Of a DNA stretch of 64,000 bases, positions 6,221 through 56,445 are shown piece by piece. The first letter of the stretch is position 1; each line of letters starts with the position of its first letter. The translations under genes were made by a program, and so were the position numbers. The notes under the pieces were generated by a model, which was given only the letters and a program-made list of their open reading frames with translations, was not told the origin of the DNA and did no database searches. Origin of the DNA: Altererythrobacter sp. H2 (GTDB lineage Bacteria > Pseudomonadota > Alphaproteobacteria > Sphingomonadales > Sphingomonadaceae); contig NZ_CP141285.1 of NCBI RefSeq assembly GCF_035319885.1, positions 1,488,001 to 1,552,000 of the forward strand, given 5' to 3'.

Positions 6221-7636
6221 TCAGCCTTCGCTGAAGCCCACGCCCACGCTGGCACGCGGCTGCTCCATTTCGGTGCTGGCCACGGGATAGGCGCAATAGT
6301 CTGCCGCGTAATAGGCTGAAGGGCGGTGATTGCCCGAAAGACCCAGGCCGCCGAACGGGGCCTTGGACGATGCGCCGTTGGTGGGCCGGTTCCAGTTGAT
6401 CACTCCGGCGCGGACATTGGCCCAGAAACGGCTGTAATCCTGCGGGGTTCCGCCAATCAGTGAAGCCGAAAGGCCGAACCGTGTCCGGTTGGCTTCGGCA
6501 ATGCCTTCATCAAGATCAGCCACCCGGATCACCTGAAGCAGGGGGCCGAACAGTTCGACATCGGGCCGGTCCTTTATCGCGGTCGTGTCGATTATTCCCG
6601 GGGTGAGGAACGGCCGGTCGTTGTCGGGCCGGGTCATGTGGCGGATCGCCTTGCCCCCGTGGGACAGGAAATAAAGGAAGCTCTCGACCAGCTGCTCGGC
6701 CGCGTCGTTGTCAATCACCGGGCCCATGAACGGGGCCGGCTCGGCAAAGGGTTCGCCCACGATGATGCGGGACGTCAGCGCTTTGACCTCCTGCATCAGC
6801 GGGTCGTACATGCTGTCCTTCACGATCAGCCGCCGCGCCGCGCTGCATCGCTGCCCTGCGCTGGTGAAAGCCGACTGGACGATCAGCACGGCAGCATCGG
6901 AAATCTTCGGCGTGTCCATCACCACGATCGGGTTGTTGCCGCCCATTTCCAGCGCCACGATCTTGCCGGGATTGGTGGCGAGCCGCTTGTTGATGGCAAT
7001 CCCGACGCGTGCCGATCCGGTGAAGAGGACGCCGTCGACACCGGGGTGCGCGACCAGCTCCTGCCCTTCCTGCGGGCCGCCGATGAACAGCTGGGCCACG
7101 GCGGCAGAGATCCCGGCGCGGTTGAAGCAGGCCATCAGCCGCTCTGCCGTGGCGGGGGTCTTCTCGCTCGGCTTGAAGATCACGGCATTGCCCGCAATCA
7201 GCGCAGGCACGATATGTCCGTTGGGCAGGTGGGCCGGGAAATTGTATGGCCCCAGCACGACCATCACGCCGTGCGGCTTGTGCCGGACAGCGGACGATCC
7301 CTGCAGGGCGCTGTCGAGTTTCTTCTGGCCCGTCCGCTCGGCGTAGGCGTTGACCGAAATGTCCACTTTCGCGACCACCGATTCCACTTCGGTGCGGGCT
7401 TCCCACATCGGCTTGCCGGTTTCCCGGGCAATTGTTTCGGCCAGACGGTCGGCATCCTTGCGCACTTCGTTGGCAAAGCGGCGGACCAGTTCGATCCGGG
7501 TGGCTAGCGGCTGGGCTGCCCAGGCGGGCCAGGCGCGGCGGGCGCGGTCAACAGCTTCGGCAACATTGCCGATCTTGCCGCGCCAAAGTTCAACGCCAGT
7601 GGCCGGTTCGAAAGAGACGATATCGGATTGGGACAC
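6221..7636 (-). CDS. astD: N-succinylglutamate 5-semialdehyde dehydrogenase
   Basis: 471 residues of the NAD(P)-dependent aldehyde dehydrogenase family, best matching AstD, which oxidises succinylglutamate semialdehyde to succinylglutamate in the arginine succinyltransferase (AST) pathway. Visible motifs are the NAD-binding FTGSARVGIAINKRL, the ALEMGGNNP region holding the catalytic Glu, and the catalytic Cys in SAGQRCSAARR. LFGPLLQV and FGGLGLSGNHRPSAYYAADYC near the C-terminus resemble AstD rather than other aldehyde dehydrogenases. A GTG start at 7636 is chosen because an AGGAAGGA ribosome-binding site lies 8 nt upstream; reading from 7696 would add 20 atypical residues. The other ast genes are 43 kb away at 50.6-54.2 kb. 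Confidence 0.9.
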   Translation of the reverse strand: MSQSDIVSFEPATGVELWRGKIGNVAEAVDRARRAWPAWAAQPLATRIELVRRFANEVRKDADRLAETIARETGKPMWEARTEVESVVAKVDISVNAYAERTGQKKLDSALQGSSAVRHKPHGVMVVLGPYNFPAHLPNGHIVPALIAGNAVIFKPSEKTPATAERLMACFNRAGISAAVAQLFIGGPQEGQELVAHPGVDGVLFTGSARVGIAINKRLATNPGKIVALEMGGNNPIVVMDTPKISDAAVLIVQSAFTSAGQRCSAARRLIVKDSMYDPLMQEVKALTSRIIVGEPFAEPAPFMGPVIDNDAAEQLVESFLYFLSHGGKAIRHMTRPDNDRPFLTPGIIDTTAIKDRPDVELFGPLLQVIRVADLDEGIAEANRTRFGLSASLIGGTPQDYSRFWANVRAGVINWNRPTNGASSKAPFGGLGLSGNHRPSAYYAADYCAYPVASTEMEQPRASVGVGFSEG

Positions 7637-7992
7637 GATCGACGTCCTTCCTATCAGGCTGGTTGTGTGTTTCCCGCGAAGAGGCATGGTTGGCAAAGAG
7701 CTAACGAGCGGGCTTCTACCCGGAGTCGCATAAGGGTCAACAATCTTGGCCGCTTGTTTAATCCCGATTAGTCTTGATTAACGTTTGTAAGCACGGCAGA
7801 TACCACGCTGCTTTTACGAGACGTAAGGCACTGGCGCCCCTGACGGGTGTCATTTCAGGGGCAAACAGGGGCGCGCCGTCTGGCACGGTGACAGTTCCAT
7901 TCCCTGCATAAACGGGTCGCATCCGTTGGCCGCAGCGTGACACGCGCGCGGTTTTAGTTCTGCTCAGGCTTCGGCCGGTGGGAGTTTATGTG
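7637..7992. other. Intergenic leader region between astD and the adhesin gene
   Basis: A 356-bp gap carrying the divergent promoters of astD and the adhesin. It contains a perfect 8-bp inverted repeat, GCCCCTGA at 7836-7843 and TCAGGGGC at 7855-7862, which could be a leader hairpin or operator about 130 bp before the adhesin start. It is locally richer in A/T (around 7755-7790) than its surroundings, as expected of a promoter. No small ORF with a convincing ribosome-binding site and no RNA gene was recognised. Confidence 0.5.
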
Positions 7993-10539
7993 ATGCGTAA
8001 GAATTCCGGATATCTCGGTGGTCTGGGCCTGGCGGGCTCGACCCTGGCGTTTGCCGTCGTGGCGATGACCACGATGACCGCTGCCCCGGTGGCGGCAGAA
8101 GAGTGCTTGCTCGACGATGGCGATCCCGCGTTTGAAGGCGTGGTTGATGACGCACTGCTCGTACCGCCGACCGATTCGACCGGCGGCGCAGTCTCGACCG
8201 GACCGGGAAGCACCGATTCGCTCGCATGCGGCCCGAATGCACAGGCAACGGGGGCAAACAGCACCGCGGTTGGGGCAAACACTTCGGCGACAGGTGACCA
8301 ATCGACCGCCGTGGGCAGCCTTGCCTCCGCAGGTGGGCGCAATTCCGTCGCGATGGGCCGCGTCGCTACCGCATCCGGTAGCGAAGCGGTCGCCATGGGC
8401 TTCCGTTCCACGGCCAGCGGTGCCAACTCGGTCGCCTTGGGGCGTGAGAGCCAAGCCACAGGCGCTGGTGCCTTTGCAGCGGGCTCTTTCGCGCTTGCTT
8501 CGGGTCGCGCCTCGACCGCAACCGGCTTTGGGGCGGCGGCGCAGGGCGAAACCTCGACTGCTGTCGGGACGCTCGCGGTCGCATCGGGCGACGATGCTGT
8601 GGCGATTGGTGAATCGGCTATTTCTTCCGGCCTGAACTCCGTCTCGGTCGGTTCGGAAAGCTCGGCAACGCAGCCGGGCACGTCGGCCTTCGGCTGGCGC
8701 GCCAATGCGACCGGCGTCCGTTCGACGGCGCTCGGTCACCTGACAGTAGCGAGCGGCACCCGCTCGACTGCGGTGGGTGAAGCAGCGCAGGCAACCGGTT
8801 CCCAATCAATTGCGGTTGGCAACCTGGCATCATCGACCGCCGTCCTCAGCGTGGCGATTGGTGGTGACAACGATGGCAACTTGATTGGTGCCACGGCCAG
8901 CGGCCCCGGCGGTGTTGCCATCGGTGGTGATGCTGATGCGAGTGGTTTCATATCCACTGCGCTGGGGGTCAGCAGCACTGCGTCAGGGGATCAAGGCACT
9001 TCGCTCGGCGGTTTCTCGACCGCCTCGGGCGACTTCAGCACGGCGGTTGGTATCGGTGCCAGTGCGACTGGCTTTGCCAGCAACGCTTATGGTGGCGGCG
9101 CCAATGCTTCTAATGAATTCACCGTCGCAATCGGCAACCTTTCCCAAGCCACTGGCGCTGCTGCCAATGCCATTGGGAATGGCTCAAACGCATCGGGTAG
9201 CTTCTCCGTCGCTCTGGGCAACGTAGCCCAAGCCACCGGAAACAATTCGGCTGCGCTGGGCAATGGTTCCGTGGCAGCCTTCGACAACTCGACCGCCGTC
9301 GGCGTCGGGACCGTCACCGACCGTGCTGGCCAGGTCAAGCTGGGCAACACGGGCAGCTCGGTAACGGTTGGCGATATCGCCGCCAGCACCGCCGCCCAGA
9401 CCGGGACCCTCTTCATGGCCACCACCGATGCCAGCGGTACGCTGGGCCAGGGCGTGGACGTGAGCACGCTGGCTTCGGTTGCCCAGGTCGATGCGCTCGA
9501 CGGACGTCTCACGACGGCCGAAGGTGATATCGTTGTTCTCGACGGACGTCTGACCACGGCCGAGGGCGACATTGTGGCACTCGACGGGCGCCTGACCACG
9601 GCGGAGGGCGACATTGTGGCGCTCGACGGACGCCTAACCACGGCCGAGGGTGACATTGTCGCTCTCGACGGACGTCTGACGACGGCTGAAGCAGGGATCG
9701 CCACCAACGCTTCGGCCATCGCTGCCAGCGCCACCGCAATTACGGCGCTCGACACGCGGGTCACGACCAACGAAGCCAACATCGCCACCAACACCACGAA
9801 TATCGCGGCCAATGCTTCGGCGATCACGGCTCTCGACACGCGGGTCGCGACCAACGAAACCAACATCGCGACAAACACGGCGAACATCGCGACGAACACC
9901 GCCAACATCGCCACCAACACCACGAATATCGCGGCCAATGCTTCGGCAATCACGGCGCTCGATACGCGGGTGACCACCAACACCAGCAACATTGCCACCA
10001 ACACGGCCAATATTGCTGTGAACGCTGGTAACATCGCCACCAACACAGCCAATATCGCTGTGAACGCTGGCAACATCGCCACCAACACCACCAATATTGC
10101 CGCGAACACGGCAGCAATCGGGGTGCTTGATACGCGGGTGACCACCAATACGACCAACATTGCTGCCAACTCGACGGCAATCAACGGTCTCAACACCCGG
10201 GTGACGGCAAACACCACCAACATCGCAGCTCTGCAGACCCTGACTCAGACCCATACCGGACAGATCAACCAGCTGTTCGGTGAAACCGCTGCCAACCGCG
10301 CAGCGATTGACCGGTCGAACGAAGGTGTGGCCATGGCGCTCGCGATGGAATCGCCGATGCTTCCCGCAGGCACCACGTTCGCTCTCTCGGGCGGCGTCGG
10401 TTACTTCGAAAGCCAGGGTGCCGGCACGCTCGCCATCTCGGCCCGGGTCAGCGAAAACGCTGCCTTCTCGGCCGGCGTCGGTATCGGCTTCGACAGCGGC
10501 GAAGTCGGTGCACGTGGCGGCTTCCAAGTCGCCTGGTAA
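7993..10539 (+). CDS. YadA-like trimeric autotransporter adhesin
   Basis: 848 residues (from the ATG at 7993, preceded by GGGAG) with the full domain plan of a type Vc secreted adhesin. A signal peptide occupies residues 1-35, ending near APVAAEE. About residues 80-450 form a head of YadA-head (Hep_Hag) repeats with the pattern AxGxxSxAxGxxAxA, such as NSTAVGANTSATGDQSTAVG. A stalk follows at about 490-750, first five 14-residue LDGRLTTAEGDIV units, then heptads of the NIATNTA type with N at core positions. The last 75 residues are the YadA anchor, forming four strands per monomer and ending in GGFQVAW. The trimer would secrete and display itself on the outer membrane and bind surfaces or host matrix. 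A specific ligand cannot be inferred. Confidence 0.93.
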   Translation: MRKNSGYLGGLGLAGSTLAFAVVAMTTMTAAPVAAEECLLDDGDPAFEGVVDDALLVPPTDSTGGAVSTGPGSTDSLACGPNAQATGANSTAVGANTSATGDQSTAVGSLASAGGRNSVAMGRVATASGSEAVAMGFRSTASGANSVALGRESQATGAGAFAAGSFALASGRASTATGFGAAAQGETSTAVGTLAVASGDDAVAIGESAISSGLNSVSVGSESSATQPGTSAFGWRANATGVRSTALGHLTVASGTRSTAVGEAAQATGSQSIAVGNLASSTAVLSVAIGGDNDGNLIGATASGPGGVAIGGDADASGFISTALGVSSTASGDQGTSLGGFSTASGDFSTAVGIGASATGFASNAYGGGANASNEFTVAIGNLSQATGAAANAIGNGSNASGSFSVALGNVAQATGNNSAALGNGSVAAFDNSTAVGVGTVTDRAGQVKLGNTGSSVTVGDIAASTAAQTGTLFMATTDASGTLGQGVDVSTLASVAQVDALDGRLTTAEGDIVVLDGRLTTAEGDIVALDGRLTTAEGDIVALDGRLTTAEGDIVALDGRLTTAEAGIATNASAIAASATAITALDTRVTTNEANIATNTTNIAANASAITALDTRVATNETNIATNTANIATNTANIATNTTNIAANASAITALDTRVTTNTSNIATNTANIAVNAGNIATNTANIAVNAGNIATNTTNIAANTAAIGVLDTRVTTNTTNIAANSTAINGLNTRVTANTTNIAALQTLTQTHTGQINQLFGETAANRAAIDRSNEGVAMALAMESPMLPAGTTFALSGGVGYFESQGAGTLAISARVSENAAFSAGVGIGFDSGEVGARGGFQVAW
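9496..9690 (+). repeat. 42-bp tandem repeats coding the adhesin stalk (14-aa unit)
   Basis: Units begin at 9496, 9538, 9580, 9622 and 9664 (the last truncated to 27 bp) and each encodes LDGRLTTAEGDIV plus one variable residue. Copies differ at a few silent positions, so they are old or have been partly scrambled, but they remain similar enough for slippage or recombination to change stalk length. Confidence 0.85.
9748..10230 (+). repeat. Heptad-coding repeats of the adhesin coiled-coil stalk
   Basis: About 160 codons made of 7-residue units close to NIATNTA/NIAANAS, interrupted by LDTRVTTN segments that recur about every 27-48 residues. Asn recurs at a fixed heptad position, typical of trimeric coiled-coil stalks that coordinate anions in the core. 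Several blocks are nearly identical in DNA (for example around 9790-9840 and 9910-9960). Confidence 0.8.
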
Positions 10540-10557
10540 GCCGTTACAGCTGCGGTC

Positions 10558-11103
10558 ATGAAATTGATCGCCCGAAACAGGAAGATGCCGGGGCTTCGCG
10601 CTCCGGCATTTTTCTTTGCCGCCCTGGCCTGTGCCGCCACCGCTCCTGCTTTTGCGCAGGTCCAGCAAGTGCAGGGGCAGCCGACCGTCCAGCCGCCGGC
10701 TTCCATGCGCCCGACGCCCAGCCAGCTCGAACTGTCGAAGCTGATCTGGTCCACTTTTGCCGCAGTCGACCATGCCAACCGTTCGGGCAATTATTCGGTG
10801 CTGCGCGACATATCCTCGCAAGGGTTCCAGATTGCCAACACCGCGTCGCGCCTGTCGGAGATTTTTGCCGGGTTGCGCAATTCGCAGATCGATCTGTCGA
10901 ACGCCTTCCTCGTGCCGCCCACATACCTTGAGGCGCCACGGCTGGTGCGCGAGGACCTGTTCCAGGTGAAAGGCCTGTTCCAGCTCCGCCCGATTTCGCT
11001 GGCTTTCGACTTCACTTACCAGTGGGAACAGGGGCGCTGGAAACTCTACGCGATCAACATCACCCCTGCCGAAATGGTCCAGCAGGCACCGGCCGCACGC
11101 TAG
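10558..11103 (+). CDS. Small exported protein downstream of the adhesin
   Basis: 181 residues with a signal peptide (hydrophobic core FFFAALACAATAPAFAQ, residues 18-34) and a QVQQVQGQP linker. The mature domain has TPSQLELSKLIWSTFAAVDHANRSGNYSVLRD and later WEQGRWKLYAINITP, a pattern resembling small NTF2/SnoaL-like or DUF4864-like periplasmic domains; this assignment is tentative. It lies 18 bp after the adhesin stop on the same strand. A strong hairpin with a T-run sits within its first 20 codons, so co-transcription with the adhesin may be reduced or controlled. The alternative start at Met10 (10585) falls at the base of that hairpin. The function is unknown. Confidence 0.75.
   Translation: MKLIARNRKMPGLRAPAFFFAALACAATAPAFAQVQQVQGQPTVQPPASMRPTPSQLELSKLIWSTFAAVDHANRSGNYSVLRDISSQGFQIANTASRLSEIFAGLRNSQIDLSNAFLVPPTYLEAPRLVREDLFQVKGLFQLRPISLAFDFTYQWEQGRWKLYAINITPAEMVQQAPAAR
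10585..10613 (+). terminator. Intrinsic terminator overlapping the start of the next coding region
   Basis: Bases 10585-10594 and 10600-10609 form a 10-bp stem (one G-U pair) with a TTCGC loop, followed directly by TTTTT and then CTTT. This is a textbook Rho-independent terminator, placed 45 bp after the adhesin stop codon. It lies inside the first 20 codons of the exported-protein gene at 10558-11103, so it is also coding sequence. Confidence 0.8.
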
Positions 11104-11115
11104 GCCGTTCCGGCT

Positions 11116-12513
11116 TCAGCCATGGCCTGCCGGTGCGGGAACCGGCCCCAGCGCTTCCCCCATGCGCCGGATCTGCGTGACCTTATCATGGAGCGGACGC
11201 CAGTCGTCACGCTCGTCAATGGCGGACCAGAGCGCCTCGACCTCATCGATCAGCAGGGAAACCGGTGCTTCCTCGCGCCACCAGGCACGCGCATAGCGTG
11301 AGTCATGATAGCCAGCGAGGGCGTCCTTGACCGGTCCATCCACAAGCTGGCGGGCGCGGATGCGGTGGAAGAAGGCGTCAGGTTGTTCTCTGCTGTCCCG
11401 CATGGTTGCCTCGCAGGCCGCCACCAGGGCCATGTCGGCCTCGCCGCCCTTGGGCTCCACGCCCAGACGCCAGCACCAGCGCCGGGCGACCGCTGCCATG
11501 TAGAGCGGCCCGAACCGCTCCAGCGCGGCGATCAGCGGCGGGGCGTCTGCCAGCAGGCGCAGTGCCACCGCCAACTGCCCGCAGTTCCAGTGGACCGCCT
11601 CCGGCTGACGGCCGAAGGCATAGAGCCCGCCATGGTCGAAATAGGCGGCGGTAAACCCCTGGTCCCATGTGGGCAGCCAACGCCAAGGGCCATAGTCGAA
11701 ACTCTCGCCCGAAATGTTCATGTTGTCAGTGTTGAGCACGCCGTGGACGAACCCTGCCACCATCCATGCAGCAGCCAGATCGGCCACCCGTTCCACCACC
11801 TGATGGAGCAGGATTACCGCTGGCTGCTCACGCCCGGGCGCATCCTGCGGCGGAAGCGGGCCGGGGAACTGTGCCAGGCAGTAGTCGACCAGCTGCGCCA
11901 TCTCGTCGGCCTGCTCCAGCGCCAGCAGCCGCTGGAAGGTGCCGAAGCGGATGTGTCCGTGGCTGAGCCTGGTCAGCACGGCAGAGCGGGTGGGGGAGGG
12001 CTCGTCGCCGCGCCACAGCTTCTCGCCGGTTTCGATCACGGAAAAGGTCTTCGATGTGTTGACGCCCAGCGCCTCCAGCATTTCGGTCGCGAGGATTTCG
12101 CGGACCGCGCCTTTGAGCGTCAGCCGCCCGTCGCCGCTGCGCGACCATGGCGTCTGGCCCGATCCCTTGGTGCCGAGGTCGAGCAATCGCCCTTCGCCGT
12201 CCCTCAGCTGGGCAAACAGGAACCCGCGCCCGTCCCCGATTTCGGGGTTGTAGACCCGGAACTGGTGGCCGTGATAGCGCAGGGCGAGCGGCTGGGGCAG
12301 GTTGCCGGGCAGCGGTTCGAACCGGCCGAAGTGGCGTTCCCACTCCGCATCGGTCAGACGGTCAAGCCCCACGGCCCTGTCCCACCTGTGGTTGCGGAAA
12401 CGGATCGTCGTGCCGGGAAAGTCAGCCGCAGCCACCGGGTCGCCCAGCCAGGGGGCCAGGGGCAGGATTGCGGGATCGGGGCGATACGGCGCGGCTTGCG
12501 GTTCTGGTCGCAT
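11116..12513 (-). CDS. selO: Protein adenylyltransferase SelO (YdiU/UPF0061)
   Basis: 465 residues, close to the family norm. SelO is a pseudokinase-fold enzyme that transfers AMP from ATP to Ser/Thr/Tyr of proteins, linked to redox stress. Visible motifs are the nucleotide-binding LLDLGTKGSGQTPWSRSGDG near residue 107, LKGAVREILATEMLEALG, and the metal/catalytic region NTDNMNISGESFDYGPW near residue 235. The C-terminus (GPVPAPAGHG) has no Cys, unlike the redox-active CxxC/U tail of some homologues. The start at 12513 (MRPEPQAAP) is preferred over 12582 because it leaves a promoter region before the divergent hydrolase gene at 12606. Confidence 0.9.
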   Translation of the reverse strand: MRPEPQAAPYRPDPAILPLAPWLGDPVAAADFPGTTIRFRNHRWDRAVGLDRLTDAEWERHFGRFEPLPGNLPQPLALRYHGHQFRVYNPEIGDGRGFLFAQLRDGEGRLLDLGTKGSGQTPWSRSGDGRLTLKGAVREILATEMLEALGVNTSKTFSVIETGEKLWRGDEPSPTRSAVLTRLSHGHIRFGTFQRLLALEQADEMAQLVDYCLAQFPGPLPPQDAPGREQPAVILLHQVVERVADLAAAWMVAGFVHGVLNTDNMNISGESFDYGPWRWLPTWDQGFTAAYFDHGGLYAFGRQPEAVHWNCGQLAVALRLLADAPPLIAALERFGPLYMAAVARRWCWRLGVEPKGGEADMALVAACEATMRDSREQPDAFFHRIRARQLVDGPVKDALAGYHDSRYARAWWREEAPVSLLIDEVEALWSAIDERDDWRPLHDKVTQIRRMGEALGPVPAPAGHG

Positions 12514-12605
12514 CGCGCGATAGTGGGCGCGGGCGTCCGTGCTGGCAAGGCAGGGCGCCGCATTGTTTTTCCAGAGCAGCATTTCCGGGGGTTGGCAGAG
12601 CGCAG

Positions 12606-13466
12606 ATGGACACCAGTTACCAGGACCGCTTCTGGACCAGCCCTGACGGCTTGAAACTGCATTTTCGCGATTACCCGGGCCGGGACGATCGCCTGCCGGT
12701 TCTTTGCCTGCACGGGCTGACCCGCAACGCGCGCGATTTCGAGCAGCTGGCAGCGCATCTGGCGGGGGAACGCCGGATCCTCGCCCTCGACATGCGCGGG
12801 CGCGGTGACAGCGAATATGCGCGCGACAGCGCCACCTACAATCCGGTCACCTATGTCGGCGATGTCATCGCGCTGCTGGAGCAGGAGGGGATCGCGCAGT
12901 TCATTGCGGTTGGCACTTCGCTCGGCGGGCTGATGACCATGCTGATGGCCTCGATTGCGCCGCAGCGCCTTGCCGGGGCCGTGCTCAATGACATCGGGCC
13001 GGAGGTTGATCCGTCCGGTATTGACCGGATTCGCGAATACCTGGGGCAGGCACGCAGTTTCCCGACCTGGATGCACGCGGCCCGCGCCTTGCAGGAAGTT
13101 CACGGGGCATCGCACCCCGGCTTTGCCATCGAGGACTGGCTGGCGATGGCCAAGCGGTGCATGGTGGTGCAGCAGAACGGCCGGATCGGGTTCGATTACG
13201 ACATGGCGATTGCCGAGCCGTTCCGCGATGCCGAAGGGGCTGTGCCGCCTGACCTGTGGCCTGCGTTCGAGGCGCTTGCGGCTGCACCGCTGCTGATTGT
13301 TCGCGGGGGCGCATCCGACCTGCTGAAGCCTGAAACGCTGGCGGAAATGCTGCGCCGCCATCCCGATGCCGAAGCGGTCACCATTGCCGATGTGGGCCAT
13401 GCCCCCACGCTCGATGAGCCGGAAGCCGTGGCCGCTATCGACCGGCTGCTTGCCCGCCTTCCATGA
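12606..13466 (+). CDS. Alpha/beta hydrolase
   Basis: 286 residues of the alpha/beta-hydrolase fold. The oxyanion-hole region is LCLHGLTRNARDF near residue 35, and the nucleophile elbow is GTSLGG near residue 105 (Gly-x-Ser-x-Gly). The acid is probably Asp in the LLIVRGGASDLL region, and the His is in VGHAPTLDEPE near residue 265. Such proteins hydrolyse esters, lactones or similar bonds, and the substrate is not deducible. The ATG at 12606 begins MDTSYQDRFW. The stop codon overlaps the start of the glycosyltransferase gene by 4 bp (ATGA), indicating translational coupling. Confidence 0.9.
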   Translation: MDTSYQDRFWTSPDGLKLHFRDYPGRDDRLPVLCLHGLTRNARDFEQLAAHLAGERRILALDMRGRGDSEYARDSATYNPVTYVGDVIALLEQEGIAQFIAVGTSLGGLMTMLMASIAPQRLAGAVLNDIGPEVDPSGIDRIREYLGQARSFPTWMHAARALQEVHGASHPGFAIEDWLAMAKRCMVVQQNGRIGFDYDMAIAEPFRDAEGAVPPDLWPAFEALAAAPLLIVRGGASDLLKPETLAEMLRRHPDAEAVTIADVGHAPTLDEPEAVAAIDRLLARLP

Positions 13467-50593: not shown

Positions 50594-51844
50594 TTAACCC
50601 AGTTCCTGCAATTCGAGCGCTGCCAGCAGCGCATTCCGTGCAGCAACAACTGTCCGGACGAGGGCTGGGTTCCCGATGTCGGACGGGTCGATCTGTTCCG
50701 GCCATGACCAGGCGATGACGCGCTCGATCAGTTCGGCCTTGCCTTCGCTCAGGAGGAATCGCGGATCGACTGTTGCCGGATCGGCCACCACCCGCAGGCG
50801 CAGGCAGGCCGGGCCGCCGCCATTGGCCATCGACTGGCGCACGTCGACCGGGATTACCTGCCGGATCGGGCCGTTTCCTGCCAGCATCCCTTCGCACCAT
50901 GCCCAGACGGCTGCGTTGTCGTGGCATTCCTCCGGCACCACCAGCGCCATTTCGCCGGATGGCAGGGTGAGCAGTTGCGCGTTGAACAGGTAGCTGCGGA
51001 TCGCGTCTTCCAGGCTCACCGCGCTTGCGGGGACTTCGACTACCTCCAGACCCGGGAAGGCTTTGCTGATCGTCTCATAGGCACCCTGCTGGTCGGCAAA
51101 GGCCAGTTCGTGGGTGAACAGCACCGTGCCGTTGGCAACGGCCACCACATCGTTGTGGAAGGCGCCGGCCGCAATGGCCGCCGGATTCTGCTCGATGAAC
51201 ACGGTCCGCATCGGGTCGAGCCCGTGCAGGCGGGCGACTGCACGGCTGGCCTGCTCGTGCTGGCGGGCGGGAAATTCGCCGCCCTGCCGGCCATAGACGA
51301 ACACTTCGACCCCCGGGGCGTCATGGCTTTCGCACAGCCGCATGTGGTTGGCCGCGCCCTCATCGCCGAGACTGCCGGGAACTGCATCGTGGACCGCGAA
51401 ATGGCGCTTGTCGGCAAAGGCAATGGCGAGCTGACGGCGGGTGTCGGGCCATTCCTGCGCGCGGTGCAGCATGGTGGACAGGTTCGCCGGGGTCAGATGG
51501 CAGCGCCCGTCGGCCGTATCCGGCGCGGGGCTGACGGTGGCGGCATTAGCAGTCCACATGCTGCTGGCCGACCACGCGGCGGCGAGCAGTGCGCGCTCTG
51601 CCGTGTCGTCCACTGCCAGCCGCGCGAGCAAGTCGCCGTTGGGGCGGGGCAGGGGCAGCAGAAAGCCCTGCGCCAGGCCGAGTCCCATGTTGTGGCGCAT
51701 TTTGGCCAGCCCCTGCAGCGCCGCCGCGCGCGGGTAGGACGGGTCGCCCTTGTGGCTGGCGCTGGCCAGGTTGCCGAGGCTGAGCCCGGCATAGTTGTGG
51801 CTGGGGCCGACGATGCCGTCGAAGTTGATCTCGCTTAAGCCCAT
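50594..51844 (-). CDS. astB: N-succinylarginine dihydrolase
   Basis: 416 residues. AstB hydrolyses N2-succinylarginine to N2-succinylornithine, ammonia and carbon dioxide. The start region INFDGIVGPSHNYAGLSLGNLAS is diagnostic. FIEQNPAAIAAGAFHNDVVAV near residue 215 contains the catalytic His/Asp, and ANGGGPACLRLRVV near residue 365 holds the Cys nucleophile. The ATG at 51844 is chosen because codons upstream (from 51892) run through a REP-like hairpin and do not match AstB. It is the last gene of the M20-astA-astB operon. Confidence 0.93.
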   Translation of the reverse strand: MGLSEINFDGIVGPSHNYAGLSLGNLASASHKGDPSYPRAAALQGLAKMRHNMGLGLAQGFLLPLPRPNGDLLARLAVDDTAERALLAAAWSASSMWTANAATVSPAPDTADGRCHLTPANLSTMLHRAQEWPDTRRQLAIAFADKRHFAVHDAVPGSLGDEGAANHMRLCESHDAPGVEVFVYGRQGGEFPARQHEQASRAVARLHGLDPMRTVFIEQNPAAIAAGAFHNDVVAVANGTVLFTHELAFADQQGAYETISKAFPGLEVVEVPASAVSLEDAIRSYLFNAQLLTLPSGEMALVVPEECHDNAAVWAWCEGMLAGNGPIRQVIPVDVRQSMANGGGPACLRLRVVADPATVDPRFLLSEGKAELIERVIAWSWPEQIDPSDIGNPALVRTVVAARNALLAALELQELG

Positions 51845-51859
51845 TTCCAGCATCCGTTC

Positions 51860-51915
51860 GGTTCGAGCGAAGTCGAGAACCCGTGCAGCCATCGTGTCTC
51901 GACTTCGCTCGACAC
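51860..51915. repeat. Paired inverted REP-like hairpins between astA and astB
   Basis: Two 22-bp units face each other at 51860-51881 (GGTTCGAGCGAAGTCGAGAACC region) and 51894-51915, with 12 bp between. Each unit can form a small hairpin (7 bp with a 2-nt bulge and a six-base loop), and the two are complementary over 16 bp (TCGAGCGAAGTCGAGA). This fits the BIME-like REP pairs common in sphingomonad genomes. It lies between two co-transcribed genes. Confidence 0.8.
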
Positions 51916-51932
51916 GAACGGGGCCTTTGTGG

Positions 51933-52949
51933 CTACCGCAGAACGCTCCACACCTCTTCGCCTTCGCTGACACCCAGAAGCTCGGCGGTGCTGGCGTCGA
52001 TCGCCACCGTGCCGTCAGGCGCCAGCTCGCGCGCGCCGTAACAGGCGCGGAAGGTGGCGAGGCGGCCGGTTGCGATAAGCGCCTTCTCGCCGCGCTCCAG
52101 GGCGGTTGAGGCAATCGTCGCGCGCTTCGCCTCAGCTACGCTTTTCACCCGGTCGGTGCGGGCCAGCATGGTCGGGCCGCCATCAAAGATGTCGACGTAG
52201 CCTTCGTAGGCGAAGTTCTCGTTCTCCAGCATCCGCATCGCCGCGCGACCATTGGGGTGGGGCACGCCGATCACATCGCGCGCGCTGTCATTCAGCATGG
52301 CGATATAGACCGGATGCTTGGGCATCAGGTCGGCGATGAACTGGTTGCCGTTGATGGCGTTGAAATAGTCCGCTTCCTGGAAGTTCATCCCGAAGAAGCG
52401 GCCTGCCACCCCGTCCCAGAAGGGAGAACCGCCGCGCTCGTCGATGATCCCGCGCAGCTCTGCCAGTACCCGGTCGGCAAAACGCGCACGGTGCATGGCG
52501 ATGAACAGGTAGCGGCTGCGCGCCAGCAGCAGGCCGAGGCCCCCGGCGCGCTCGTTGGGGTGGAGGAACAGGCCGCCGACTTCGCTCGATCCTTCGAGAT
52601 CCGTGACGAGGCTGAGCATTTCCGCCCGCACCGTGCGATCCAGTTCCTGCGAATGCTGGGTCAGCGTGGTCTTGCGATAGGAGTAGAACGGCCACTGCTG
52701 CCCTACCATGCACATCAGCTGGCAGGTGCCGCGTACGTGACCGGTTTCGGTGTTCTCCAGCACCAGCACAAACTGGTCATCGCCCAGTTGGTCATCGTCG
52801 CGTTCGAAAGCGGCAGCGGCACGCTCCAGCTTGCGGGCCAGCGCCTTGCGGTCAGGCGGCAGATTGGTGAAGCCGCCCCCGGTCAGCTTGGCCATTTCGT
52901 AGAGCGGCTCGAGATCGTCGGAATGCGCCGCGCGCAGGCGAAAGGTCAA
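51933..52949 (-). CDS. astA: Arginine N-succinyltransferase
   Basis: 338 residues (E. coli AstA is 344). It transfers succinyl from succinyl-CoA to the alpha-amino group of arginine. Recognisable segments are FRLRAAHSDDLEPLYEMAKLTGGGFTNLP, LFLHPNERAGGLGLLLARSRYLF (acetyltransferase-like CoA site) and FGMNFQEADYFNAINGNQFIADLMPKHPVY, each quoted only as landmarks. A TTG start at 52949 overlaps the TGA of the upstream M20 gene (TTGA), with GGGGGA about 7 nt before it. This gives the family's normal N-terminus; a longer frame to 53168 is low-complexity and unlikely. Confidence 0.9.
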   Translation of the reverse strand: MTFRLRAAHSDDLEPLYEMAKLTGGGFTNLPPDRKALARKLERAAAAFERDDDQLGDDQFVLVLENTETGHVRGTCQLMCMVGQQWPFYSYRKTTLTQHSQELDRTVRAEMLSLVTDLEGSSEVGGLFLHPNERAGGLGLLLARSRYLFIAMHRARFADRVLAELRGIIDERGGSPFWDGVAGRFFGMNFQEADYFNAINGNQFIADLMPKHPVYIAMLNDSARDVIGVPHPNGRAAMRMLENENFAYEGYVDIFDGGPTMLARTDRVKSVAEAKRATIASTALERGEKALIATGRLATFRACYGARELAPDGTVAIDASTAELLGVSEGEEVWSVLR

Positions 52950-54154
52950 AGCGGGTCCCCCAGGGCAAGCGATTGGAGCACAAGCGCGCTCAAGGCGGCG
53001 CGCTCGGCCAGCGACGGCACGATCAGGTACTCGTCGGGTGAATGGATCGCGCCGCCGCGCACGCCCATGGTGTCGACCACGGGGATGCCGCAGGCGGCGA
53101 TGTTGTTGCCGTCGCACACGCCCCCGCTGGGCTGCCAGCCGATCGTCTGGCCCAGCTGCGCGCCGCAATTCCGGACCAGGTCGAACAGCTTCTGAGCGCG
53201 CCGGTCGACCGGCTTGGGCGGGCGGGTGACGCCGCCGTGGCGGTGGATGTGGACCTCGTGCGCCTGCTGGACTTCGCCGATCAGCGCGGCGAGCCCGGCC
53301 TCGAACGCTTCGGCGGCAGCCGGGCTTTTCGGGCGGATGTTGAAGCGTAGAACCGCATGATCGGGCACCACGTTGTTGGCCGCGCCACCGTCGATCCGGG
53401 CGGGGTTGACCGGGCAGTCGGTGCTTTCCAGACGCTTGAGGCCCAGCGTCAGCGCGGCGGCGGCGACAATGGCGTTGCGCCCGTCCTGCGGGTTGCGCCC
53501 CGCGTGGGCAGAGCGGCCGGTGATGATCAACGAATAGTTGCCGCTCCCGCCCCGGGCATGGGCCAGCGTGCCGTCTGGCAGGGCAGAGGGTTCGTAGGTG
53601 AGCGCGGCATACTTGCCCCGCGCCAGCCGCTCGATCAGCGGGGCGGAGGAGAGGCTGCCGGTTTCCTCGTCCGAATTGAGCAGCACGTCGTAGCCCAGCC
53701 GGTGCGCCTGCGGGCTCTGCTCGAACGCTGTGAGCGCGTGGAGGATCACCGCGATCCCGCCCTTCATGTCGGCCAGGCCCGGGCCGTTGAGGGTCTCCTC
53801 GTCAATCCAGCGCTGCTGCTGGAAGGGGTGATCGGAGGGGAACACGGTGTCCATGTGCCCGGTCAGCAGCAGGCGGCGCTCTGCTTCGGGGCGGACCCGC
53901 AGCACGATGTGGCGCCCGAATCCCTGTTCCACTTCCTGCCCGGCCCCATTGACCGAGGTGACCGGGGCAGGATCGATGTATTCAAGCTCCCCCGGCAGCG
54001 CGCCGAAGGCTTCGGCCAGCATGGCGGAGAAAGTTGCCAGACCGCCAAGATTGGCGGTGCCGGTGTTGACCGCGCTCCACGCCTGCACCTGCGCCAGCAT
54101 GGCTGGCTGGTCGACGGATGCGGCAAGAGCGGCGGGGTCGGTATCCGGTTTCAT
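52946..54154 (-). CDS. M20-family metallopeptidase in the ast operon
   Basis: 402 residues of the M20 di-zinc hydrolase family (carboxypeptidase G2/ArgE/DapE fold). Metal and catalytic residues are visible: [12 protein letters not shown] near residue 98 (His, Asp), [11 protein letters not shown] near residue 130 (Asp), [12 protein letters not shown] near residue 165 (catalytic and metal Glu), and AIHSPDEYL near the C-terminus (His). It is coupled to astA by a 4-bp TTGA overlap. No astE (M14-type desuccinylase) is in the window. Because DapE, another M20 enzyme, cleaves a succinyl amide, this protein could remove succinate from succinylglutamate, but this is inference. The ATG at 54154 is used. 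Confidence 0.8.
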
Positions 54155-54339
54155 GGGCAACCGGCTCTAGCCGCTGGCGGGCGACGTTCCAACCCCGCCC
54201 GCATCGGGTCAGGCAAGGGCGTTGCATTCGACAGGTCGCTTGGCCATATGGGCCGCGTCCTCCCCGGGCATTGCGATTCAACCCGACTGGCGGCACAGGC
54301 TGCCGGTCTGCCGCTGTGCACAACACGAAGCGAGGACAC

Positions 54340-56445
54340 ATGACCCAGTACACCACCCGCGCCGGATTGCAGGTTTTTCCCGGCCTTGCCGCCCTGCTCG
54401 AACAGCAGGTACTGCCGGCGCTCGGCCAGGATGCGGCGGCGTTCTGGCAGGGGTTTGCGGCCTTGCTTGAGCGGTTCGCGCCGGAGAACCGCGCGTTGCT
54501 GGCCAGGCGCGAGGCACTGCAACAGCAGATTGACGCCTGGCATATCGAGCGGCGCGGCAAACCGGTTGATCCAGGCGAATATCGTCAGTTCCTCGAATCG
54601 ATCGGCTACCTTGTGCCGGAGCCGGGCGAATTCATCATCGGAACCGAAAACGTCGATGACGAAATCAGCACGATGGCGGGGCCGCAGTTGGTGGTGCCGA
54701 TCCTCAATGCGCGCTTCCTCCTGAACGCCGCGAACGCGCGCTGGGGCAGCCTGTACGATGCGCTCTATGGCACCGACGCGCTCGACGCGCCGCCGGCGCG
54801 GCCCGGCGGCTATGACGAGCAGCGCGGCGCGGCGGTGATCGCGCGGGCGCGGGCATTCCTCGACCAGGCCCTGCCGCTGGCGGGCGGGACGAGCTGGGCG
54901 GAGCTTGCGGGGCCGGACTCAATCGAGCTGGCGGACCCCGCGCAGTATCTCGGCGAAACAGAGAAGGGCCGTCTTTTCAAGAATAACGGCCTGCATGTTG
55001 AGGTGGTTTTCGATCCCGCCAGCCCGATTGGCAGTGGCGATCCGGCGGGTATTGCCGACGTCCTCTGCGAATCGGCCCTGACCACGATCTGCGACTGTGA
55101 GGATTCGGTCGCAGCGGTCGATGGTGAGGACAAGACGCTCGCCTACCGCAACTGGCTGGGCCTGATGCGGGGCGACCTGGAAGAGAGCTTCGACAAGGGC
55201 GGGCGCACCCTGACCCGGCGGCTGGAGGACGACAAGCGCTACACCGCGCCCGACGGAAGCGAGCATACCCTGCCCGGGCGCAGCCTGCTGTTCGTGCGCA
55301 ATGTCGGCCACCTTATGACCAACCCGGCGATCCTGCTCGGCGATGGCAGCGAAGTGCCCGAAGGCATCATGGACGCAGTCTTCACCAGCGCAATCGGCGC
55401 GCTCGATGTGCGCGGGCATGGCCGGTGGACAAACAGCCGCCATGGCAGCATCTACATCGTCAAGCCGAAGCAGCACGGGCCGGAAGAATGCCGCTTTACC
55501 AATGACCTGTTCAACGCGGTTGAGGATTTGCTCGAACTGCCCCGCTACACGGTCAAGGTTGGCGTGATGGACGAGGAGCGCCGCACCAGCGCCAACCTTG
55601 CCGCCTGCATCCATGCGGTGAAGGACCGGATCGTGTTCATCAACACCGGCTTCCTTGACCGCACTGGCGACGAGATCCACACCTCGATGCAGGCCGGGCC
55701 GATGATCCGCAAAGGCGCGATGAAGACCAGCGGCTGGCTCGCCGCCTACGAAAAGCGCAATGTTGCCATCGGGTTGAAGCACGGTCTTTCCGGCCGCGCG
55801 CAGATCGGCAAGGGTATGTGGGCCGCGCCTGATCTGATGGGGCAGATGATGGTTGAGAAGATCGGCCATCTGAAAGCCGGGGCCAACACCGCCTGGGTGC
55901 CGAGCCCGACGGCCGCCACGCTCCACGCGCTGCATTACCACCAGTGCGACGTGTTCGAAGTTCAGCAGGGGCTGGGCGAAATCCCGCCGCTGGATGATCT
56001 GCTTGCCATTCCGCTGGCTGACGGGACCAACTGGTCGGAAGAGGAAGTGCGCGAGGAACTGGACAACAACGCGCAAGGCCTGCTCGGCTATGTGGTGCGC
56101 TGGATCGATGCCGGGGTGGGCTGCTCCAAGGTGCCGGACATCAACGATGTCGGCCTGATGGAGGACCGCGCCACCTTGCGGATTTCCAGCCAGCACATGG
56201 CCAACTGGCTGCTCCATGGCGTCGCCACCCGCGAACAGGTGATGGACAGCTTGCGCCGCATGGCCGCCAAGGTTGACGCGCAGAATGCGGGCGATCCGGC
56301 CTATGTCCCGCTGGTCGGCAACGAGGACGGCGCGGCTTTCCGCGCCGCCTGCGATCTGGTGTTCAACGGCGTCGAGCAGCCGAGCGGCTATACCGAGCCG
56401 CTGCTCCATCAATGGCGTCTGGCGAAGAAGGCGGCTGGCGGCTAA
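54340..56445 (+). CDS. glcB: Malate synthase G
   Basis: 701 residues (the E. coli enzyme has 723). It condenses glyoxylate with acetyl-CoA to malate in the glyoxylate bypass or glycolate use. Landmarks are [26 protein letters not shown] near residue 250, [16 protein letters not shown]-type text, [41 protein letters not shown] and [21 protein letters not shown], typical of the G isoform; each is quoted by name only. AGCGAGGA lies just upstream of the ATG at 54340. It is divergent from the M20 gene, with 185 bp between starts. Confidence 0.95.

Follow-up and report, generated by a model that had tools for sequence, protein, structure and literature searches.

Which enzyme completes the arginine succinyltransferase (AST) pathway in Altererythrobacter sp. 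H2, a bacterium in which the succinylglutamate desuccinylase AstE is missing? The question is raised by a gene cluster in a 64,000-nucleotide stretch of its genome (contig NZ_CP141285.1, positions 1,488,001 to 1,552,000; hereafter the window), where a gene for an M20 metallohydrolase lies directly upstream of astA and astB. Following the known chemistry of the AST pathway, AstA would succinylate arginine, AstB would yield succinylornithine, an ArgD/AstC-type transaminase and AstD would yield succinylglutamate, and the M20 enzyme would then hydrolyse the succinyl amide to release glutamate and succinate. The M20 protein, a member of family PRK07338, is very probably a dedicated cytoplasmic di-zinc N2-succinyl-L-glutamate desuccinylase that takes step 5 of the pathway in place of AstE; this last step is assigned to it because AstE is missing and the M20 gene accompanies the other pathway genes.

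AST genes in the genome of Altererythrobacter sp. H2

The genome is a single contig of 3.24 Mb (99.99% complete). Genome-wide searches for AstE returned no matches, either with PF04952 at E 0.001 or with TIGR03242, including at E 0.001 (the E. coli control was positive), so the proposal of the first-pass annotation, that the M20 protein stands in for AstE, is not refuted. The other pathway genes are present: AstA and AstB are matched by Pfam and subfamily models and AstD by its equivalog model, with astD lying 43 kb from the M20-astA-astB cluster, where it had been placed at the outset. The astD reading frame is counted from the first TTG, although translation probably begins a few codons downstream of it.

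That annotation had also reported the absence of AstC, which is correct for the cluster and for the AstC model, as no match in the genome exceeded its cut-off, but leaves out an ArgD that might serve, encoded outside the window. This best AstC/ArgD match, and the only strong one (genome positions 614837-615991), is an ArgD-type transaminase that scores 585.6 bits against NF002325 and 393 bits against the AstC model, versus a cut-off of 609.95, and its gene is followed by a carbamoyltransferase gene (PF00185/PF02729). The transaminase may serve both arginine synthesis and the AST pathway.

Identity of the M20 protein

The M20 protein scores 571.6 bits (cut-off 357) with NF005602 (PRK07338, "hydrolase"), and the M20 domains PF01546 and PF07687 are both above cut-off; an AstE domain is neither among its three Pfam matches nor among the NCBIfam matches listed (25 of 48). 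The family is catalogued in NCBIfam under a name that carries no function, and a role in the AST pathway would be a new assignment. A DapE identity was considered and rejected (86.8 bits against NF009557, cut-off 284; 59.9 bits against TIGR01246, cut-off 361.8), and the score against the ArgE model TIGR01892, 73.4 bits, is likewise far under the cut-off. The CPG2-type model PRK06133 ("glutamate carboxypeptidase") gives 200.3 bits, also below its cut-off of 349.

Carboxypeptidase G2 (CPG2) is the nearest solved structure by sequence (E 4.8e-33), and the AlphaFold2 model of the M20 protein (mean pLDDT 84.9) aligned best with it (VIA scores: 6xj5, Z 39.7; 1cg2, Z 39.5, rmsd 5.4 over 381 residues), ahead of a putative acetylornithine deacetylase (Z 34.8) and DapE with succinate (8f8o, Z 33.6). 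The common fold proves no function. The two proteins share the M20 fold, the di-zinc site, the catalytic glutamate, the dimer-domain histidine and the positions of N275, R288 and R324; they differ in sequence (~27% identity), in two basic residues specific to the PRK07338 family (see below) and in the signal peptide, none being seen by eye in the M20 protein, which suggests a cytoplasmic enzyme. DapE, the succinyl-diaminopimelate desuccinylase, resembles the proposed enzyme in having an M20 fold and in cleaving a succinyl amide, but the expected substrate is another one. As the closest characterized relative is CPG2 and not DapE, an N-acyl-glutamate substrate is the more likely. A passage of PMC5919439 describes CPG2 (glucarpidase) as cleaving the C-terminal glutamate off folates and p-aminobenzoyl glutamate. 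A literature search, judged on the entries it listed, found no published assignment of a PRK07338 M20 protein as succinylglutamate desuccinylase, although a curated database may hold one; the main text of PMC9007349 contains no match to succinylglutamate or astE.

Distribution of AstE and the M20 protein among AstA genomes

Co-occurrence was evaluated in 347 genomes of Pseudomonadota (phylum set), 147 of the order Sphingomonadales (order set), 153 of the class Alphaproteobacteria (class set) and 14 control genomes. In the phylum searches the initial candidate lists ran to 5 or 6 matches per genome, with AstE counted at E 1e-20 and the M20 protein above the NF005602 cut-off. AstA was found in 123 of the 347 phylum genomes, AstE in 83 and the M20 protein in 39. 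The 123 AstA genomes divide into 82 with AstE only, 39 with the M20 protein only and two with neither (G082 and G544); none carries both, and this mutual exclusion (Fisher p 5e-30, uncorrected for kinship), together with clusters that hold the other AST steps, supports the replacement of AstE that the first-pass annotation had suggested for the M20 protein. Among the 224 phylum genomes without AstA, the M20 protein occurs in none and AstE in one (G496, locus L197), where the AstE-family match reaches 279 bits, below cut-off. The M20 protein is present in 36 of the 38 alphaproteobacterial AstA genomes and AstE in none; AstE is present in 82 of the 85 others, the remaining three (G438, G500 and G586) all having the M20 protein. 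Eight further phylum genomes, all with AstA and AstE, contain a relative of the M20 protein below cut-off (265-285 bits); these genes were excluded from the family counts and two of them (L194 and L195) were inspected.

The same association is seen at closer range. In the order set the M20 protein accompanies AstA in 124 of 125 genomes and is found in none of the 22 AstA-free genomes, and the recurrence of the pairing, which the first-pass annotation had proposed to check, is borne out: in 123 of the 125 the M20 match is found less than 3 kb upstream of astA in the same orientation (within 200 bp in 122), with a median of 14 bp between the match edges. The exceptions are G159 and G153, the latter with each of the two genes at the end of a contig. 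A stop codon interrupts the match in seven of the 126 M20 rows. In the class set, six of the eight AstA genomes have the M20 protein and none has AstE, G082 and G087 having neither. Caulobacter vibrioides, among the controls, matched AstA and the M20 protein and not AstE.

A distant AstE/aspartoacylase-like protein might instead perform the step in Sphingomonadales. AstE is above cut-off in none of the 147 order genomes, and the weak TIGR03242 matches that speak for such a protein occur in 45 of them (best 37 bits); but they cover part of the model only, turn up as well in genomes that lack AstA (such as G210, G267, G164, G172 and G176) and are absent from the H2 genome at E 0.001, which makes this explanation extremely improbable.

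Gene order and phylogeny

Gene order was compared around the closest M20 homologues (the best 80 of 224), whose loci are mostly from Erythrobacteraceae. The order M20-astA-astB is kept in 77 of the 80 and the other three stop at a contig edge. In 79 of the 80 loci the M20 stop codon closes a tetranucleotide TTGA (41 loci), GTGA (23) or ATGA (15), which fits an overlap of stop and start codons. Elsewhere the order of M20-type clusters varies: astC-type/M20/astA/astD/astB in L086 (G125) and L092 (G438), M20/astA/astD/astB in L083, L087, L091, L099, L103 and L107, and M20/astC-type/astD/astB/astA in L106 (G178). This last locus (6991-13449) is a second AST cluster in a genome that also has an ordinary M20-astA cluster, and its AstA model match spans 4-275 of 337. 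In L094 (G500) a true AstC (693.6 bits, above cut-off) accompanies M20/astD/astB, with AstA elsewhere. In those clusters that represent the other AST steps, desuccinylation is the step left vacant.

The organization of AstE-type loci differs. Among the 30 best-scoring AstA matches of the phylum set at such loci, the order astC-type, astA, astD is found in 29, and the two loci read further (L108 and L109) continue with astB and then astE. The M20 gene is mostly upstream of astA, whereas astE is 3' of astB in both loci read that far, and in some genomes (for example G529) astE is on another contig than astA. The proposed reaction and its position as step 5 are those of AstE (TIGR03242, PF04952); the protein family is different.

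These clusters also bear on a shorter route, in which the M20 enzyme would hydrolyse N2-succinylornithine to ornithine and succinate in the manner of ArgE, bypassing AstC and AstD. In its favour, the M20 gene of the window has no AST genes beside it except astA and astB, with astD remote from them, and acyl-diamino acids are the substrates of M20 relatives of the ArgE/DapE type. Yet astD is intact in the genome, several relatives cluster the M20 gene with astD and sometimes with an astC-type gene, which the shortcut would make useless, and the M20 protein scores far under the DapE (NF009557) and ArgE (TIGR01892) cut-offs. We regard the shortcut as very unlikely. From the exclusion of AstE and the operon content, we strongly infer that the M20 protein would act on succinylglutamate.

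In the M20 tree, the AST-linked proteins cluster together, apart from CPG2 and five other M20 proteins (support 90/99, with long branches). In the AstA tree, which has long branches and moderate support, the AstA proteins of G500 and G586 fall among those of AstE-type loci and that of G438 with an alphaproteobacterial one. This placement suggests transfer of a whole cluster to or from the lineage of G438, and a separate pairing of the M20 gene with an AstE-type AstA in G500 and G586.

Active-site residues of the PRK07338 family

Residues were compared in alignments of 18 sequences with CPG2 and of 98 family members, 80 of which are the closest homologues, mostly from Erythrobacteraceae; numbering of the M20 protein starts at the ATG at 54154. 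The roles of the CPG2 zinc ligands and of E175, H229, N275, R288 and R324, and the offset between the two numberings, are those we take to hold for that enzyme. Alignment to CPG2 bears out the earlier observation that the di-zinc residues are all kept: the ligands H100, D129, E164, E188 and H371 and the catalytic E163 do not vary among the 98 family members, and neither do H217 of the dimer domain and the residues aligned with CPG2 N275, R288 and R324. The corresponding N261, R274 and R311 would hold the glutamate part of the substrate.

Two further residues, R220 (three past H217) and K314 (three past R311), are invariant in all 98 members, whereas neither CPG2 nor any of the five other M20 proteins aligned has a basic residue at these positions; the sub-cut-off genes of L194 and L195, from AstE-bearing genomes, lack both. 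We propose, as a prediction, that R220 and K314 hold the succinyl group by its distal carboxylate.

Observations that weigh against the assignment

Several findings count against a desuccinylase role. Across the phylum, order and class sets, AstE and the M20 protein are both missing from four genomes with AstA (G082, G087, G159 and G544), so either another enzyme exists or the assemblies are incomplete. G087 and G159 contain astA-astD-astB clusters (L085 and L096) with neither enzyme, and no astB was seen around astA in G082 (16 kb) or G544 (18 kb). A third desuccinylase, none being obvious by eye in the four neighbourhoods, may exist in clusters of the G087/G159 type. The G159 assembly is 95% complete in 160 contigs and its family sibling G153 has the M20 gene and astA at contig ends; a missing contig is therefore possible for G159. 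Conversely, the AstA-free G146 of the class set has a 255-bit M20 match, below cut-off, and the control Thermus composti has an M20 match with AstA unmatched, so an AstA-free relative exists; this match and that of C. vibrioides are both at E 1e-75, and one or the other of them is above the M20 cut-off. The split between AstE and the M20 protein largely follows the division between alphaproteobacteria and the rest, so the counts are not independent events. CPG2 K208, which we presume to contact glutamate, is not conserved in the family. In H2 itself, AstA is above cut-off for the subfamily model TIGR03243 and below it for the equivalogs TIGR03244 and TIGR03245, and AstB is above cut-off for NF009789 (550 bits) and below it for the equivalog TIGR03241.

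On this evidence the M20 protein might be a general glutamate carboxypeptidase of the folate or peptide type that merely sits in the operon, with an unrecognized enzyme performing the last AST step. That CPG2 is the closest solved relative, the four genomes with neither enzyme and the T. composti relative would all fit such a protein. It would not account for the tracking of AstA by the M20 gene, with no occurrence in AstA-free phylum genomes, or for the exclusion of AstE, and the family-specific invariant residues are missing from CPG2. Taken together, we give a general carboxypeptidase very little credence, and retain a succinylglutamate desuccinylase as the preferred assignment.

Layout of the locus

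Positions are collected in Table 1. The M20, astA and astB genes and the TTGA overlap of the first two were confirmed in the sequence; the description of all three as one coupled unit held in part. The TTGA overlap points to translational coupling from the M20 gene to astA, but astA and astB are not coupled in this way, as they are separated by 79 bp whose predicted folding into a hairpin is strong (free energy -44.4 kcal/mol, z -5.93). The inverted repeat of this spacer, with arms TCTCGACTTCGCTCGA, is present in a single copy in the window. Both arms recur as a pair between astA and astB in L110, L147 and L171 and downstream of astB in L126, and lone arms are found elsewhere in L081, L140, L146 and L147; the repeat could be a palindromic element of the REP type or else a terminator conserved among these loci. 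The M20 gene is divergent from a neighbouring malate synthase G gene (54118-56445, + strand), and the intergenic region common to the two may link their promoters.

Table 1. Features of the AST locus in the window (positions within the 64,000 nucleotides).
Feature	Position	Strand	Evidence or proposed role
M20 metallohydrolase gene, 402 aa, ATG start at 54154	52946-54154	-	NF005602/PRK07338; proposed N2-succinyl-L-glutamate desuccinylase
TTGA overlap, M20 stop codon with astA TTG start	52946-52949	-	sequence
astA, arginine (or arginine/ornithine) N-succinyltransferase, 338 aa	51933-52949	-	PF04958, 432 bits
astA-astB spacer, 79 bp, long inverted repeat (hairpin)	51854-51932	-	
astB, N-succinylarginine dihydrolase, 419 aa	50594-51853	-	PF04996, 581 bits
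astD, succinylglutamate-semialdehyde dehydrogenase	6221-7696	-	TIGR03240, 597.2 bits, cut-off 579.3

Significance

Beyond Altererythrobacter sp. H2, PRK07338 probably constitutes a second succinylglutamate desuccinylase family, distinct in structure, that arose from a CPG2-like glutamate carboxypeptidase and uses R220 and K314 to read the succinyl carboxylate; it would serve nearly all AST-using alphaproteobacteria, never together with AstE, and would have entered other proteobacterial lineages more than once. The assignment gives a candidate function to a widespread family that NCBIfam calls only "hydrolase" and, if true, closes the AstE gap in arginine catabolism as predicted for Sphingomonadales and for further alphaproteobacteria. 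It would be a clear case of one pathway step taken by two zinc hydrolase families that are mutually exclusive across the phylum sample.

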